Of a stretch of 64,000 nucleotides of DNA, positions 41,794 through 54,803 are shown in pieces (positions within the stretch are counted from its first letter, which is position 1; every line of letters starts with the position of its first letter). The notes beneath the pieces are model-generated. The model saw nothing but the letters and a program-made list of their open reading frames with translations. It was not told the origin of the DNA and did not search any database. The stretch comes from Prosthecobacter sp. (GTDB taxonomy: Bacteria; Verrucomicrobiota; Verrucomicrobiia; Verrucomicrobiales; Verrucomicrobiaceae), in the NCBI GenBank assembly GCA_019186985.1, contig JABARQ010000001.1, forward strand, positions 62,001 through 126,000, in the 5' to 3' direction. The position numbers and the translations under genes were made by a program.

Positions 41794-41809
41794 GGCCATT
41801 TTCATGCCA
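41794..41809 (-). promoter_or_regulatory. Sigma-54-type promoter of nasA
   Basis: On the minus strand the sequence is TGGCATGAAAATGGCC, matching TGGCAYG-N4-TTGCW with the essential GG and GC pairs at correct spacing. The predicted start is near 41784, giving a leader of about 23 nt before the nasA ATG at 41761. The -12 element has TGGC in place of TTGC, as at the porin promoter. Confidence 0.6.
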
Positions 41810-41819
41810 GGGCGAGGAG

Positions 41820-42144
41820 GGAATGCCCAATGAGCAGGGATCAATAACCAAGGAAGGCCCCAAGGACCGAGTGATCCAACGCGGGAACTGAGTGGCCATG
41901 CGCTGCGCTTTGTCCCTTGGGTCCTGGTATTTGGGAATTCCTTGATCATTGGCGGGCCTGAGCCTTGGTCATTTTCAGGGCGGGTGAGGCGGAATGCCCA
42001 ATGAGCAGGGCCCAATGACCAAGGAAGGCCCCAATGTCCAAACGAGCCAAGGCGGGAACTGTTCGGCCATGCGTTGTGCTTTGGCTCTTGGGCTCTGGCG
42101 ATTGGGTATTCCCTGGTCATTGGCATTTGATCCTTGGTCATTCC
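41820..42144. repeat. Tandem 171-bp heptamer-type repeat, two units, between nasA and the DmsBC gene
   Basis: The phrase ATGCCCAATGAGCAGGG starts at 41823 and 41994, exactly 171 bp apart. Units contain many variants of AATGACCAAGG and its inverse CCTTGGTCATT, with heptamer phasing. The array fills the gap between the DmsBC stop (42145) and the sigma-54 site of nasA, leaving no convincing coding sequence. The same units occur at 45526-45822 and 46330-46825. Confidence 0.85.
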
Positions 42145-45932: not shown

Positions 45933-46319
45933 ATGAAACCCAGTGAACAAATGAAGGCTGCCGAAGAGGGGGGGGCGAAGGAGGTTTTTGACCTTGAGGA
46001 GCGAACCGCCAAATTTGGCGAGCAAGTGATCGAGTTCTGCCGCTCGGTGAAAGAAGACAGCGTTACCAGGCCTCTGATCAGCCAACTTGTGCGAAGCGGG
46101 ACAAGCGTCGGGGCCAACTATGCGGAAGCGGATGAGGCGGTTTCGAAAAAGGAATTCATGAACAAAATTGGCACCTGTAAAAAGGAGGCCAAGGAGTCGA
46201 GGCACTGGGTGAGGATGATTGTGAAAGCTTGTCCGGACAAAAGAACCGCAGCCGTTCCCCTGTGGAAGGAGGCGAATGAGTTGCTGCTGATCTTTGCGGC
46301 CATCTGGCGGAAGAAATGA
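45933..46319 (+). CDS. Four-helix-bundle protein, S23/IVP family (23S rRNA-intervening-sequence type)
   Basis: The 128-residue protein from ATG 45933 (a longer frame starts at 45885) matches the S23/TIGR02436 four-helix-bundle family, related to the Avd accessory proteins of diversity-generating retroelements. Key pattern: KFGEQVIEFCRS, then RPLISQLVRSGTSVGANYAEAD, KKEFMNKIGTCKKEAKESRHWVRMI and a last helix, LWKEANELLLIFAAIWRKK. Members occur inside 23S rRNA intervening sequences and as scattered chromosomal copies of unknown function. This gene is antisense to the nitrate cluster and is bracketed on both sides by the 171-bp repeats. The sequence around it (about 45823-46325) is unique in the window. 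Confidence 0.82.
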   Translation: MKPSEQMKAAEEGGAKEVFDLEERTAKFGEQVIEFCRSVKEDSVTRPLISQLVRSGTSVGANYAEADEAVSKKEFMNKIGTCKKEAKESRHWVRMIVKACPDKRTAAVPLWKEANELLLIFAAIWRKK

Positions 46320-46329
46320 GGAACATTTG

Positions 46330-46825
46330 AGGAATGCCCAATGAGCAGGGGCCAAAGACCAAGGAAGGCCCCAAGGTCCGAATGACCCAAGGCGGGCACT
46401 GTGCGGCCGTGCATTGCGCTTTGTCCCTTGGGCCTTGGTGGTTGGAAATTCCCTGGTCATTGGCAAGCCTGGTCCTTGGTCATTCTCAGGACAGGTGAGG
46501 GTAAATGCCCAATGAGCAGGGCCCAAAGACCAAGGAAGGCCCCAAGGTCCAAATGAGCCAAGGCGGGCACTGTGCGGCCGTGCATTGCGCTTTGTCCCTT
46601 GGGCCTTGGCGGTTGGAAATTCCCTGGTCATTGGCAAGCCTGGTCCTTGGTCATTCTCAGGACAGGTGAGGGTAAATGCCCAATGAGCCGTGCCCAATGA
46701 CCAAGGAAGGCCCCAAGGTCCAAATGAGCCAAGGCGGGCACTGTGCGGCCGTGCATTGCGCTTTGGTCCTTGGGCGCTGGCGGTTGGAAATTCCCTGGTC
46801 ATTGGCATTTGATCCTTGGTCATTC
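46330..46825. repeat. 171-bp heptamer-type repeat array, right of the S23-family gene
   Basis: ATGCCCAATGAGC recurs at 46333, 46504 and 46675, each 171 bp apart, giving nearly three full units of high similarity. The array ends in CCTTGGTCATTC directly against the stop codon of the diflavin reductase gene (TCA at 46826-46828 on the plus strand). An open frame of 449 codons on the minus strand is a by-product of the 57-codon period. Confidence 0.87.
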
Positions 46826-48433
46826 TCAATACACGTCTCTTGCATACCTCCGTGTCTTCTTCATCTCCGCGACATACTGCGCGGCTTCCTCAGCCGACCT
46901 GCCGCCCTGGGACTGGATGATCTGGCGCAGGGCTTCATCGACATCCTTCGCCATGCGCTTGGCATCGCCACAGACGTAGAAATATGCGCCTTCCTCCAGC
47001 CACTGCCAGAGTTCGCTGGCGGCCTGAAGCATGCGGGTCTGGACGTAGATTTTCTCCTCCTGGTCGCGGCTGAAGGCGGTGTCGAGCCGGGTGAGCAGGC
47101 CGGTCTTCAGCCAGCCGGTGATCTGTTCATGATAGAGAAAGTCGCTGGCGCGTTTCTGGTCGCCGAAGAACAGCCAGTTCTTGCCCGTGGCCCTCGTGGC
47201 CTCACGTTCTTCAAGGAAGGCCCGGAAGGGCGCGATGCCGGTGCCTGGGCCGACCATGATGACCGGCCGGGTCAGATCACTGGGCAGGCGGAAATGGGCG
47301 GCGGCATGAAAATAAATGCCGGTGGTTTCGCCGAGAGGCAGGCGGTCGGCGAGGAAGGTGCTGGCCGTGCCCTTGTGAGCGATGCCGTCGCTGGTGTAAC
47401 GTACCGCGCCGACGCAGAGATGCACCTCGTCCGGATGAGCCTTGATGCTTGAGGCGATGGAGTAAAGCCGCGGCTGCAGCTTGCGCAGGCCGTTGAGGAA
47501 GGCTTCGAGGGTCAGGCCGGGCTCGGGTGTCTTGCCAAGAAGATGACGGATCTCGAAATCGGTGAGGAGGGTTTCGCGAAGCGTCCGCGAGCCCACGGGG
47601 GAAGCCGGATCGAATCCATGGGAGGAAAGCACGGCCTCGACGACTTCAGGGCAGTTTCGAACGAAGACGCCCAGGGCGTCCCCGACCTCGTAAGTCAGCC
47701 CGCTGCCTTGGAGCGAGAAGGCGATGTGATGGGTGTCCTTGGCGCTGCCCGGGGCATTGAGGGCCTCATTGGCGACCAAGCGGGCCTGGAAGGGATTCTT
47801 TTTGGACCACGAGCCTTCAGGTGCTGTTGCCGCGTCGGATGTCTCCGCCGGTCCTGAGGCTCCGAGGATGCTGAAGGCGTTTGCAGACCATGTCCTTGCC
47901 TCATCGTCAAAGTCGACGTCGCAGTCCACGCGTTCAGCGATGCGTGTGGCCCCAAGCTCGGCGAGCCTTGCGTCGATTTTTTTCCCCGCGAGACAGAAGG
48001 TGTCGCCGTAATTTTTGTCTCCAAGCGCCAGGACGGAGTAGCTCACGCCGTCGAACCTGGGGCTGCTGCCGTTCTGGTTGATGGTGTTCCAGAAGGAGGC
48101 GGCGTTGTCAGGCATGTCACCCTCGCCCCAGGTGGAGGTGATGAGCAGGACGTTGCGGTCCTTGATGAAGTCGGCGGGTTGCAGCGAATCGAGGCCTGCG
48201 GCTCGCGCCGCAAAGCCCCGACCCGCTGCTTCCCTGGCCAGCCGCTTGGCCAAACTTTCCGCGTTGCCGCTCTGACTGCCGAAGGCGATGAGGAGGGGTC
48301 GTCTTGATTCTGCCTCCATGGATCCACCGGGAGGTGAGCCGCGGTTCAGGACTCCCGCGAGGAAGCCGTTGAGCCAGGCGCGTTGTTCGGCGGAGAAGGG
48401 AGCGTTGTCAGGAATCAGGGGGACGATTTTCAT
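46826..48433 (-). CDS. CysJ-like diflavin reductase, probable electron donor to nitrite reductase
   Basis: The 535-residue flavoprotein has an FMN flavodoxin domain (AFGSQSGNAESLAKRLA, TSTWGEGDMPDNAASFW, LALGDKNYGDTFC), an FAD domain (LQPRLYSIASS, KGTASTFLADRLPLG) and an NADP-binding domain (VIMVGPGTGIAPFRAFLEER, FFGDQKRASDFLYHEQI, YFYVCGDAKRMAKDVDEAL), with a C-terminal aromatic YARDVY that stacks on FAD. CysJ normally serves sulfite reductase, but its place beside nirA suggests it feeds NADPH electrons to NirA. Its N-terminus (APFSAEQRAWLNGFLAGVL) closely resembles that of NirA. The minus-strand porin gene ends 37 bp before its start. Confidence 0.88.
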   Translation of the reverse strand: MKIVPLIPDNAPFSAEQRAWLNGFLAGVLNRGSPPGGSMEAESRRPLLIAFGSQSGNAESLAKRLAREAAGRGFAARAAGLDSLQPADFIKDRNVLLITSTWGEGDMPDNAASFWNTINQNGSSPRFDGVSYSVLALGDKNYGDTFCLAGKKIDARLAELGATRIAERVDCDVDFDDEARTWSANAFSILGASGPAETSDAATAPEGSWSKKNPFQARLVANEALNAPGSAKDTHHIAFSLQGSGLTYEVGDALGVFVRNCPEVVEAVLSSHGFDPASPVGSRTLRETLLTDFEIRHLLGKTPEPGLTLEAFLNGLRKLQPRLYSIASSIKAHPDEVHLCVGAVRYTSDGIAHKGTASTFLADRLPLGETTGIYFHAAAHFRLPSDLTRPVIMVGPGTGIAPFRAFLEEREATRATGKNWLFFGDQKRASDFLYHEQITGWLKTGLLTRLDTAFSRDQEEKIYVQTRMLQAASELWQWLEEGAYFYVCGDAKRMAKDVDEALRQIIQSQGGRSAEEAAQYVAEMKKTRRYARDVY

Positions 48434-51572: not shown

Positions 51573-52445
51573 TCAGGCTGCGGCGACCATGCCGTGGGAG
51601 GCGAGTTCGGCGGCCATGTCGGCGCTAGGCTGAAACTTCGGCTCGCGGCTGGGACGGATGTGGGAGCGGTCGTTGAGGAAGGTGATCAGGTGCTCGCGCA
51701 GCTCGTAGTAGCGCGGATCCTCCATGATCTCCTTGCGGCTGCGGGGGCGTTCGAAGGGGATGTTGAGGATGTCGCCCACCTCGGCTTCGGGGCCGTCGGT
51801 CATCATGATGACACGGTCGGAGAGGTAGACGGCCTCGTCCACGTCATGGGTGACCATGAGGGTGGTGATGCGGTTGCGGCGCCAGAGCTCGAGCAGGACG
51901 TCCTGCAGCTCGTAGCGGGTGAGGGAGTCAAGCATGCCGAAGGGTTCGTCGAGCAGGAGCATCTTGGGCTGGAGGGCGAAGGCGCGGGCGATGCCGACGC
52001 GCTGGCGCATGCCCTGGGAGAGTTCGCCGGGGCTCTTGTGCATCGCATCGGCGAGACCGACGATGCTCAGGTAGTATTCGGCCATCTGGCGGCGCTCCTC
52101 CTTGCTGGCGGTGAAGTAAACCTGGTTGACGCCGAGCATGACGTTTTCAAAGGCGGTCATCCAGGGCAGCAGGCAGGGGGACTGGAAGACGATGCCGCGG
52201 TCGGGGCCGGGGCCGACGGCCTCCTTGCCGGCGAGGATCATGTTGCCCTTGGAAAGCTCGCTGAGCCCGGCGACCATCATGAGCACGGTGCTTTTGCCGC
52301 ATCCGGAATGGCCGATGAGGGTGGCGAACTCGCCCTCCCTGAGCTTCAGGCTGAAGTCCTTGACGATGGTGGCAGGTCCCTTGGGCGTGTCATAGGTCTT
52401 CCAGAGCCGGTCGAGCTCGAGCATCTTGGGGTTCTTGACGCTCAT
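51573..52445 (-). CDS. nrtD: Nitrate/nitrite ABC transporter ATPase (NrtD-type)
   Basis: The 290-residue ATPase has Walker [18 protein letters not shown] loop [16 protein letters not shown], signature [14 protein letters not shown], Walker [15 protein letters not shown] and switch [14 protein letters not shown]. The [20 protein letters not shown] stretch is typical of the nitrate/taurine/cyanate subgroup. It pairs with the second ATPase encoded upstream, whose stop overlaps its ATG (4 bp). Together with NrtB and NrtA it would form the high-affinity nitrate importer. Its stop precedes the 441-bp repeat-containing gap. Confidence 0.9.
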
Positions 52446-53362
52446 GCCGCCACCTCCACTTCTTCGTTCTTGGATTCATGGCGGCGTTTCGGGCCGCGGC
52501 GGGTGAGGAATTCAATGCTGTTCACTTGGGTCAGGTCCTCGGGAAGGATGTCGGGCAGGTTGAGCTTGAGGCTGGTCTTTGACTTGGTGCGGCCCTTGGC
52601 GTCGAGGAGCGTGTTGATGAGGCGGGCCCGCAGCTTCTTGAAGGCCGGGTCATGGTTGATGGTGCGGCGGTCGCGCGGGCGTTCGAGATTGACCAGGATG
52701 GGCTCGCCAAGGGTGGCCGGAGCGGTGGGCAGGAGCGGGATGACCTTGTCGGCCACCAGGATGGCCTCATCGGGGTCGTTGGTGATCCAGATGACGGTGG
52801 TCTTGTTGCTCTGCCAGATCTCGCTGATCTCGTCCTGAAGCGTGGCTCGGGTGAGCGCGTCGAGGGCGCTGAGCGGTTCGTCCATGAGCAGCACCCTTGG
52901 GTTCATGGCGAGCGTGCGAGCCACGGAGACGCGCTGGCGCATGCCGCCGGAGAGCTCCCGGGGCAGCTTGTGGGCGGCGTGGCTGAGCTTCACCATGGCG
53001 ATGTGCCTGGCGACATGCGCGCGACGTTGTTCGGCGGTCCAGTCCTTGAAGACCTCGTCCACGGCGAGGGCGATGTTTTCCTCCACCGTCAGCCAGGGCA
53101 GCAGGGAGTAGTTCTGGAAGACGAGGCCGCGGTCCGGCCCGGGGCCGGTGATGGTACGGCCCTCGATCAACGCCTCCCCGGAGTCGGGCTTCACGAGCCC
53201 CGAGAGAAGGTTGATTAGCGTGGACTTGCCGGAGCCGGAATAACCAACGATGACGACAAACTCGCCCTCCTCGACGCTGAGGCTGATGTCCTTCAGCACC
53301 TCGGTGCGTGAGCCGTTGTGGCCGTAGCCCTTGCAGGCGTTTCTGATTTCGATGAGAGGCAT
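52442..53362 (-). CDS. Nitrate/nitrite ABC transporter ATPase (NrtC-like, without the sensor domain)
   Basis: The 306-residue ATPase shows [66 protein letters not shown] and [14 protein letters not shown], the NrtC/NrtD pattern with a WITND switch instead of the usual THD. Cyanobacterial NrtC has a C-terminal NrtA-like domain of about 380 residues; this protein ends at a basic tail ([17 protein letters not shown]) and lacks it. Thus the NrtD type, or a shortened NrtC, is equally possible, and no symbol is given. An S23-family insertion separates its start from nrtB. Confidence 0.85.
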
Positions 53363-53370
53363 GCGAAACT

Positions 53371-53806
53371 TATGATTTATGATTTATGACTTATGATTTG
53401 GAATGGCGTTCCTATGACGAACCAAGAGATCAAAGAACGGACCATGGGCTTTGCGGTGCGAGTCCTGACGATGGTGGATGCGCTGCCGAAGACGACTGCC
53501 GGCAATACGGTTGGAAATCAGATCGCGAGAAGTGGAACATCGGTGGCGGCGAATTACAGGGCTGCTTTGAGGGCCAAGTCCGATGCCGACTTCATCAACA
53601 AAATCACCAACGTGCTTGAGGAGGCTGATGAGAGCGGTTTTTGGATCGAACTGGCTGAGAAAGCCAGATGGCTGCCCTCCAGGCGGCTGAAAGCACTTCT
53701 TCAGGAAGCCGAAGAGCTCACGAAAATCTTCAACGCCACGCGAGTGACGGCCAAGCGCCGCACGGCCAGAAATCATCAGTCGTAAATCATCAATCATAAA
53801 TGATTC
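53371..53806. mobile_element. S23-family repeat element with inverted AT-rich heptamer ends
   Basis: The left end 53371-53400 is a run of ATGATTT-type heptamers (TTATGATTTATGATTTATGA and on). The right end, about 53770-53805, is a run of AAATCAT-type heptamers, the inverse. Between them lies an S23-family gene on the plus strand. The right run touches the nrtB stop codon (TCA at 53807-53809). No transposase is present, so mobility is inferred only from structure and from the related element at 54698-54798. Confidence 0.6.
53414..53785 (+). CDS. Four-helix-bundle protein, S23/IVP family, second copy
   Basis: The 123-residue protein from ATG 53414 carries the family core ALPKTTAGNTVGNQIARSG, TSVAANYRAALRAKSDADFINKITNVLEEADESGFWIELA and a basic last helix (SRRLKALLQEAEELTKIFNAT). 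It is clearly homologous in pattern to the copy at 45933 but divergent in sequence, so the two are not a recent duplication. Its stop codon (TAA at 53783-53785) lies inside the right-hand heptamer run. It is antisense to the nrt genes and falls exactly between nrtB and the ATPase gene. Confidence 0.85.
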   Translation: MTNQEIKERTMGFAVRVLTMVDALPKTTAGNTVGNQIARSGTSVAANYRAALRAKSDADFINKITNVLEEADESGFWIELAEKARWLPSRRLKALLQEAEELTKIFNATRVTAKRRTARNHQS

Positions 53807-54694
53807 TCAGGCCGTTTTGAACCGTCCCTCGATGACGCTCATGAGGCGGTCGAGGACGTAGCCGACGACGCCGATGGTGAGGATGCAGAGGATGATGTGG
53901 GCGTAGCTGTTGGCGTTGTACTGCTGCCAGAGGAAGCCGCCGACGCCGGGGCGACCGGTGAGCATCTCCACGGCGACGATGACGAGCCAGGCGATGCCGA
54001 GGCTGAGGCGGAAGCCGGTGAACATGTAGGGCAGGGTGGCGGGCACGAGGACCTTCCAGAGAGTTTTCCAGCGGGAGAGCCGGAGCACACGGGCCACGTT
54101 CAAGTAGTCCACGGGAACGGCGCGCACGCCGACGGCGGTGTTCATCACCGTCGGCCACATGGCGCAGATGGCGATGGTGAAGAGAGCGGCTGCATCCGAG
54201 GCGCCGAAGGTGGTCCGGCCGTCGCCGTTGACGACCTTCACGCCGCTGAAGAGGATCATGCCGAGCGGCAGCCAGGCGAGGGGTGACACGGGCCGGAGCA
54301 CCTGGATGATGGGGTCGAAGGCCTTGGTGAACTGCCTGGACAGGCCGAGCAGAAAGCCGATGGGGGTGCCGATGACCAGGGCGATGAAGTAGCCCTGGGC
54401 GACGAGGACGAGGGACATCCAGGTGAAGCGCAGGATCCCCTGGTCGAGCTCGCCGCGCTTGGCGAAGGGATCCACGATGTAGGGCTTGCTTGCCGTCCAG
54501 GTTTCAGCCGGAGTCGGCAGGTCGGCGGAGAGCCCCTCACGCTTGGTGACCTTGATCTTGTCGCCAAAGTCGTCGGTCTTTTCAGTGATCACGGACTTGC
54601 CGGCGATGACGTACCAAAAGAGGCAGGTGATGAGGATCGCGAGGAGCGGCAGGAAGATGGAGTCGAGCTTGTATTTCTGGATGAGGGGATGCAT
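53807..54694 (-). CDS. nrtB: Nitrate/nitrite ABC transporter permease (NrtB-type)
   Basis: The 295-residue inner-membrane protein has an N-terminal helix (FLPLLAILITCLFWYVIAG), a soluble segment with DKIKVTKREGLSADLPTPAETW, and a core of about five helices. The EAA-type loop is VARVLRLSRWKTLWKVLVPATLPYMFTGFRL, and the WLVIVAVEMLTGRPGVGGFLWQQYN stretch is characteristic of NrtB. It forms the channel for nitrate and couples to the two ATPases. The gene lies between two heptamer-repeat insertions, one on each side. Confidence 0.91.
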   Translation of the reverse strand: MHPLIQKYKLDSIFLPLLAILITCLFWYVIAGKSVITEKTDDFGDKIKVTKREGLSADLPTPAETWTASKPYIVDPFAKRGELDQGILRFTWMSLVLVAQGYFIALVIGTPIGFLLGLSRQFTKAFDPIIQVLRPVSPLAWLPLGMILFSGVKVVNGDGRTTFGASDAAALFTIAICAMWPTVMNTAVGVRAVPVDYLNVARVLRLSRWKTLWKVLVPATLPYMFTGFRLSLGIAWLVIVAVEMLTGRPGVGGFLWQQYNANSYAHIILCILTIGVVGYVLDRLMSVIEGRFKTA

Positions 54695-54697
54695 CGG

Positions 54698-54798
54698 AAT
54701 TGATGATTGATGATTTTTGACTTATGATTTGCCGATTCACGCCGACTTCCGCCGCCGCCCCTTTCGGAGCGGCTTTGGAAATCGTAAATCATAAATCC
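54698..54798. mobile_element. Short gene-less heptamer element between nrtB and nrtA
   Basis: Left end TTGATGA-TTGATGA-TTTTTGA-CTTATGA heptamers (54698-54730) and right end AAATCGTAAATCATAAATCC (54779-54798) are inverse in type to each other. The 48-bp core is GC-rich and without a gene. It looks like an internally deleted relative of the S23 element at 53371-53806, lying in the exact gap between the nrtB start and the nrtA stop. Confidence 0.55.
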
Positions 54799-54803
54799 GG
54801 CGG

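Follow-up and report, generated by a model that had tools for sequence, protein, structure and literature searches.

Inverted short-unit arrays around S23 genes: a candidate class of single-gene mobile elements in Prosthecobacter and beyond

A small gene of the S23 family in a Prosthecobacter sp. genome lies between two runs of a seven-base unit, ATGATTT on its left and the inverted form AAATCAT on its right. The initial annotation of this DNA held that the gene and its ends form one unit and are not chance neighbours, on the grounds that the stop codon of the gene falls inside the right run. We asked whether this is so, and what kind of unit it would be. The window analysed is a stretch of 64,000 nucleotides (C14:62001-126000) of a 5.9 Mb genome in 55 contigs, and comparisons covered the genus, the host family and loci from other phyla.

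An S23 gene between inverted heptamer arrays

The features of the locus are as follows, in window positions.

52442..53362, minus strand: ABC ATPase gene of the host operon (PF00005, 118 bits)
53370..53400, plus strand: left heptamer array of ATGATTT type, about four units, upstream in the sense of the S23 gene (TRF and pattern search)
53414..53785, plus strand: S23 gene, 123 codons and a stop (PF05635, TIGR02436)
53770..53805, minus strand: right heptamer array, inverted (AAATCAT), about four to five units, downstream (TRF)
53807..54694, minus strand: ABC permease gene of the host operon (PF00528, 96 bits)
54699..54799, no strand: S23-less inverted pair of the ATGATTT unit (mini-element), between the permease and binding-protein genes

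TRF delimited two period-7 arrays, at 53370-53399 (4.3 copies) and 53770-53801 (4.6 copies), and a search for ATGATTTATGATTT with at most one mismatch gave six matches in the window and none in 100 shuffles. The open reading frame 53393-53785 (plus strand) scored 55 bits against PF05635 (cut-off 33.8) and the segment from 53414 scored 79.7 bits against TIGR02436 (cut-off 24), so that by the curated cut-offs of both profiles the protein belongs to the S23 / 23S_rRNA_IVP family. TRF, pattern search and PF05635 together confirm the inverted runs around one S23 gene, and the stop codon (TAA, 53783-53785) does lie within the right array. Upstream, the frame stays open to an ATG within the left array (53393). 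Translation probably starts at the methionine at 53414, just outside that array, because an in-frame stop precedes this methionine in 6 of the 12 other copies compared.

The element occupies the gap from the start codon of the ATPase gene to the stop codon of the permease gene and is antisense to this operon; a Pfam scan of the S23 protein and its three neighbours identified all three neighbours as ABC transporter proteins. No gene other than S23 was found between the arms. The annotation was correct that the element contains no recombinase, and it codes for no enzyme of DNA cutting or joining. In the predicted RNA fold, the two arrays pair into an extended stem that closes a loop containing the gene (-157.7 kcal/mol, z -3.04), and none of 100 shuffles was as stable.

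The second inverted pair, about 900 bases from the S23 element (arms 54699-54731 and 54778-54799), also has a stable predicted RNA fold (z -4.57). It encloses a short GC-rich hairpin. Across the whole genome, a 22-base pattern allowing up to three mismatches matched only these two window places and one array on contig C13.

The window holds one other S23 gene, of a different type (45990-46301, locus L004), which lies among 171-bp tandem repeats. The repeats near it (46333-46828) are rich in short units resembling CCAAGGA or CCAATGA, and a similar 171-bp array is found at 41797-42124. By the arm score defined below, the flanks of this gene reach 30 inverted and 107 direct.

On balance, we lean towards reading the window element as a complete member of a widespread but little-noticed group of small single-gene mobile elements, with one S23 gene flanked by inverted arrays that mostly have some four short units apiece, in which the protein would recognise its own arms and host enzymes would handle the DNA.

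Inverted arms at S23 genes and the coupling of unit and protein

We scored arms by local alignment of the 230 bases upstream of an S23 match with the reverse complement of the 260 bases downstream, with a threshold of 30. The family set comprised 88 loci of the host family, taken as the best matches of the search list and therefore not a random sample. Rows dropped from it were L007, L008, L011 and L012, which overlap L003; L016, L033 and L080, with short flanks; the duplicate L046; and the short S23 domains of L014, L037, L079 and L096, of which L037 and L096 were retained with a longer domain. L006, L009 and L010 have no S23 profile match. The cross-phylum set comprised 80 named loci spread over some twenty groups of phylum rank (assigned by title, with many MAGs), of which 79 were measurable, L173 being dropped for a short flank.

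Inverted arms reached the threshold in 74/88 family loci, and direct repeats in 13/88; the controls gave 40/871 for arms taken from different loci and 7/1916 for windows of the same size elsewhere in the loci. The arms at the window's junction, measured in locus L003, aligned with a score of 46. The cross-phylum set behaved similarly, with inverted arms in 61/79, direct repeats in 8/79 and control windows in 4/2124. Thus 135 of 167 S23 genes have inverted arrays on both sides, and the unit proposed for the window extends to S23 genes generally. The alternative outcome, that such tracts are equally common at unrelated genes and are not inherited together with S23, was not what we found: other genes in the same loci reached the score in 2/184 cases, and co-inheritance is described below.

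The arms have a characteristic structure. Seven was the best period in 49/57 cross-phylum arms and in 40/72 family arms, the remaining family arms having periods of 10 (16), 8 (14) and 11 (2). In the cross-phylum set, self-match of the upstream arm was 0.70, 0.70 and 0.68 at lags 7, 14 and 21, against 0.26-0.35 at other lags, and G exceeded C in the upstream arm in 59/61 cross-phylum and 65/74 family loci. The 16 family arms of period 10 (GTTTGCAGTG and GTTGACGGTT types) form a sub-lineage with another unit length. A test of single arms by lag-7 self-match proved undiscriminating: even the controls had a high 99% quantile (0.905 and 0.762), and not many of the S23 loci exceeded it (12/79, and 23/90 in a set that included misplaced flanks).

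We compared arm units among the 135 loci with arms. Similarity of units was correlated with identity of the S23 proteins (Mantel r 0.435; maximum of 999 permutations 0.07). Counting units as similar at a 5-mer cosine above 0.3, similar units were found in 26/29 pairs at S23 identities of at least 90%, 64/79 at 75-90%, 92/176 at 65-75%, 63/635 at 55-65%, and 0-2.5% of pairs below 55%. Judged from these sequence comparisons, the arm unit follows the S23 protein. The two arms of one locus had a median unit cosine of 0.70, partly by construction as loci were chosen for scores of at least 30, and arms of other loci whose S23 proteins are 50-75% identical had a cosine of 0.023, a comparison unaffected by selection for matching arms. 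Since arms are alike within a locus and unlike between loci, the unit turns over fast, with both arms changing. This test and the other association tests reported here ignore phylogeny.

A second gene family shows the same arrangement with another period. At the window's permease-ATPase junction, one congener (genome G060, locus L108) carries a 716-base insert of another kind. It holds a GxxExxY gene (884-1267 of L108; TIGR04256 137 bits, PF13366 133 bits) between inverted arrays of the CGCAAAGG type with a nine-base period. PF13366 is present in 56 of 59 family genomes. Among the 30 matches listed, inverted arms were found in 20 and direct repeats also reached the score in 12; control windows gave 0/392. 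The best period was 9 in 14/19 GxxExxY arms and 7 in none, against period 9 in 0/72 S23 arrays of the host family (p 1e-12). The period therefore goes with the protein family, 7 being commonest for S23 and 9 for GxxExxY. G exceeded C in the upstream arm in only 14/20 GxxExxY loci. GxxExxY is mentioned once, beside a CRISPR-type reverse transcriptase, in PMC8934634.

These data bear on a passive origin, in which polymerase slippage would make the arrays, template switching would pair them in inverted orientation, and S23 would hitch-hike in array-rich gaps. Two points count for this explanation: template switching is known to keep two arms alike, and arrays lacking S23 are abundant. Slippage has also been proposed for the abundance of heptamers (cited in PMC4692102 and PMC4679880). 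We nevertheless consider a passive origin quite improbable, because slippage alone predicts neither the enrichment at S23 genes (135/167 against 2/184 for other genes), nor the coupling of the unit to the S23 protein, nor a period specific to each gene family.

Among 107 tandem contexts, S23 lay on the same strand as the genes on either side in 97, the window copy being an exception. Tandem context as such was not enriched for S23 (107/141, compared with 485/688 adjacent gene pairs in a background that includes S23 genes; p 0.22), so that only the shared strand stands out.

Occupied junctions, empty junctions and arms without S23

Of 48 genomes of the genus, 30 (the window's own among them) have the permease gene, and its junction with the ATPase gene could be read in 29. 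Locus L114, which has no ATPase gene, and a second gap of L126, which was unusable, were left out. S23 and both runs were jointly present in 9 of the 29 genomes (the window's own included) and jointly absent in 19, the remaining genome carrying the GxxExxY insert. The gap measured 444-458 bases when occupied and 11-28 when empty. In 5 of the 19 empty junctions (L127-L131) the permeases are only about 45% identical, and orthology of these junctions is accordingly less sure. Between the occupied G029 and the empty G050, the sequences flanking the junction share 96% identity along 2317 bases on one side and 87% along 1048 bases on the other.

The neighbouring junction, which in the window holds the short S23-less pair, holds such a pair also in G039, G048 and G054, a full S23 element in G021, and a pair of a different unit in G060. 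The subfamily formed by the window S23 and proteins 74-92% identical to it numbers 13 copies in 12 of the 48 genomes: nine at the window junction, one at the neighbouring junction and three elsewhere. The three elsewhere (G053, G026 and G028) also bear ATGATTT-type runs and lie upstream of a gene that, by eye, starts alike. Within the subfamily the ends are alike and the arrays variable. Median dN/dS was 0.072 (69 of 78 pairs, saturated pairs being omitted), a value that points to maintenance of the S23 protein. An internal stop codon in S23 despite the presence of arms was seen in L134 (G048, early stop) and in L211 (a Methanophagales bin). A tree of the subfamily intermixed the three kinds of site, with modest support, and we do not take it as proof of transposition.

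Joint presence or joint absence at one junction, together with copies at other sites, supports the reading of gene and ends as a unit. We infer movement of the elements from this presence and absence. Counting against mobility, presence and absence between species could reflect loss, or homologous exchange of the junction, and no insertion event was seen.

These observations also bear on whether the element is a conventional MITE or insertion sequence that carries S23 as a passenger and is mobilised by a transposase from another locus. Its small size, inverted ends, gene-less copies and presence or absence at one site would fit. However, the sequence of the ends is not constant and varies together with S23, and comparison of occupied with empty junctions by eye gave no recognisable target-site duplication, in flanks too diverged for a base-exact insertion point. 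In addition, by eye the interiors of S23-less pairs have no common sequence in the 14 places described below. We regard this explanation as very unlikely.

The annotation tied the heptamer tracts to S23. This tie was borne out, yet the tracts are not exclusive to S23, since S23-less pairs exist, one of them in the window. Inspected by eye, most of 14 S23-less ATGATTT places were inverted pairs with some four units and a short interior. With the element's own arms removed, the median count of ATGATTT arrays was 20 among the 12 subfamily-bearing genomes, against 1 among the other 36 (p 4e-4, phylogeny ignored), and at least seven hits were found in 9/12 and 9/36 genomes, respectively (p 0.004). 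When the element's own arms were counted, the same tests gave p 4e-5 and 4e-6. G029 has seven hits and its near relative G050 none (three and none with own arms removed), a contrast on which we do not rely. The 9 of 36 genomes that lack the subfamily and still hold at least seven hits count against the S23 model. Genomes rich in hits without the subfamily were G025 (47), G036 (45), G060 (30), G064 (26) and five more; the arrays in the four named genomes may reflect loss of the partner, gaps in the assembly, or a different S23 that serves the unit.

Inverted pairs also recur at the atpD-atpC junction. We read 30 loci (L332-L361) of 44 places in 43 genomes, the window's own genome not being among the 30. 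By eye, 23 have an inverted pair, six have an array on one side and one has a remnant; no fewer than five different units occur among them. Arms and interior alike distinguish the G039 insert from those of G040, G060 and G064, even with AtpC proteins 93-95% identical to that of G039. Since the whole cassette differs among close relatives, either cassettes would swap at preferred junctions or the hairpin would be selected. That almost all of the 30 congeners read have a short heptamer insert at one and the same position counts against mobility, as it suggests selection of the hairpin equally.

Such selection is central to an RNA-processing explanation: intercistronic RNA hairpins are selected at operon junctions, as RNase III sites or for stability, S23 binds them, and they spread by ordinary transfer and recombination. 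The 23 pairs and six one-sided arrays of differing units at atpD-atpC agree with this, as do the hairpins predicted at both window sites and the shared strand of S23 and both neighbours in tandem contexts. Such heptamers are, moreover, reported to be mostly transcribed and to favour gaps between aligned ORFs (Rehm et al. 2015, PMC4692102). However, in 19 of 29 genomes the permease-ATPase junction works with no S23 element in it, the window copy runs antisense to its operon, and arms also flank S23 within 23S rRNA. Rehm et al. were also unable to assign the heptamers a role in gene regulation, and their paper (PMC4692102) still calls the role of heptamers open. We therefore judge this explanation unlikely, and continue with the reading of S23 elements as mobile units.

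Relation to known repeats, 23S rRNA and Avd

In Xanthomonas (the genus of locus L237, X. nasturtii by title), an S23 match was found in 32 of 35 genomes, two of them partial or broken (G087 and G088). Among the 30 matches listed (L248-L277), 26 lie, by eye, between accB and accC with heptamers of GGGAATC/GGGATTC type on both sides, and the other four between carA and carB, where the heptamers are GGGGACC or GGGACCC. The pattern (GGGANTC)3 gave 113-410 hits in the 30 genomes with full-strength S23; 14, 36 and 119 in the three without S23; and 19 and 32 in the two with a partial or broken gene. The difference had p 3e-4 for 30 against 5 genomes and 7e-3 for 32 against 3, phylogeny ignored, and the reversed pattern gave no hits in 33 of 35 genomes. 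The GGGAATC-type arms are the dispersed repeats of this genus, as Rehm et al. describe them in PMC4692102. Four units are preferred in these repeats, and inverted pairs are frequent (70 in Xcc).

Plasmids carry such loci as well. Of 31 plasmid records with an S23 match, nine were examined, and inverted arms of at least 30 were found in 6 of the 8 cyanobacterial ones. In one of the plasmid loci (L322, Anabaena sp. 90), S23 with inverted heptamers is flanked by cas6 and cas4 in a CRISPR operon of type I-D. The ninth record, Azospirillum lipoferum 4B, has S23 inside 23S rRNA, with inverted short-unit arms (score 47).

The heptamers of Xanthomonas and Nostoc (GGGAATC, GGGGA(C/T)T; PMC4692102) and of Beggiatoaceae (TAACTGA; PMC4679880), together with the cyanobacterial STRR, are likewise tandem, intergenic and often paired in inverted orientation. 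The unit described here, unlike those, is tied to S23: the term S23 has no occurrence in the main texts of either paper, which name no partner protein. In the literature, judged mostly from listings and with most subscription work outside the search, we recognised no paper linking S23 proteins to heptamer arrays outside rRNA. A four helix bundle gene appears in a phage table (PMC5524665).

The S23-bearing intervening sequence (IVS) of 23S rRNA is among the closest known systems. Like the window element, with its paired arms and fold z of -3.04, it has a single S23 ORF in a stem of complementary ends. In C. burnetii, the IVS is reported to carry GACAGAT heptamers in tandem ahead of its ORF and a 28-bp terminal stem, which RNase III cuts in vitro, and S23-bearing IVS have long been suspected of former mobility (PMC4990558). 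According to PMC4990558, C. burnetii probably does not produce the S23 protein, which counts against S23-driven mobility. In contrast to an IVS, the window element lies outside rRNA, antisense between ABC ATPase and permease genes; elements of its type are many, with different units, and S23-less pairs also exist. Because it lies outside rRNA we do not file it as an IVS, and we treat it as a relative of S23-bearing rRNA IVS that stands on its own.

The organisation also recalls REP/RAYT, in which a protein-coding copy lies between repeats and many dispersed repeat pairs have no gene; S23 elements would work alike. RAYT are Y1 transposases, whereas the sole gene between the window arms is S23 and not a Y1 (HUH) transposase. 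S23, a four-helix protein, has no known catalytic site. S23 loci further differ from MITEs and insertion sequences in that they generally have no fixed terminal inverted repeats and their units vary with the protein. The GxxExxY inserts share the plan of one small gene between inverted short-period arms, and differ in a nuclease-fold protein and a period of 9, not 7.

The AlphaFold model of the window S23 has four helices (mean pLDDT 96.3) and matches the S23 structures 2rld (Z 18.7) and 2gsc (Z 16.9). Avd is the partner of a reverse transcriptase in diversity-generating retroelements. The model resembles Avd (PDB 4dwl and 8ub8; Z 14.0 and 14.4 over 109-110 residues, about 10% identity), where unrelated four-helix bundles score only slightly lower (Z 13.5), and sequence profiles gave no match between S23 and Avd up to E 10. 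The modelled fold may be similar to that of Avd, and for the S23 elements we see no more than a hint of an RNA route.

In the mechanism that we propose for S23 elements as mobile units, a transcript or single-stranded DNA would fold into a hairpin in which the arms pair and the loop contains the gene. The S23 protein, with its predicted Avd-like four-helix fold, would recognise its own arm unit, and host enzymes would copy or insert the hairpin into intergenic gaps, often at operon junctions. By analogy with REP served by RAYT, S23-less arms would be copies served in trans, and the S23-bearing 23S rRNA IVS would be such an element inserted in rRNA. More tentatively, as a possibility that we would not yet bet on, the dispersed heptamers (Xanthomonas, cyanobacterial and ATGATTT) may be offspring of one recombinase-less mobile class, in which an Avd-like S23 uses an RNA intermediate and a borrowed polymerase, with rRNA IVS as its insertions and GxxExxY as a sister class with nine-letter units. 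As each S23 predicts its own arm, a direct test is possible.

If true, this reading would give a partner and a role to two long-standing puzzles, the S23 proteins, whose structures are solved, and the dispersed heptamers, and it would place the S23-bearing rRNA intervening sequence within a general class. If this class moves by means of S23, it would represent a new kind of mobile DNA, beyond a variant of the rRNA element.
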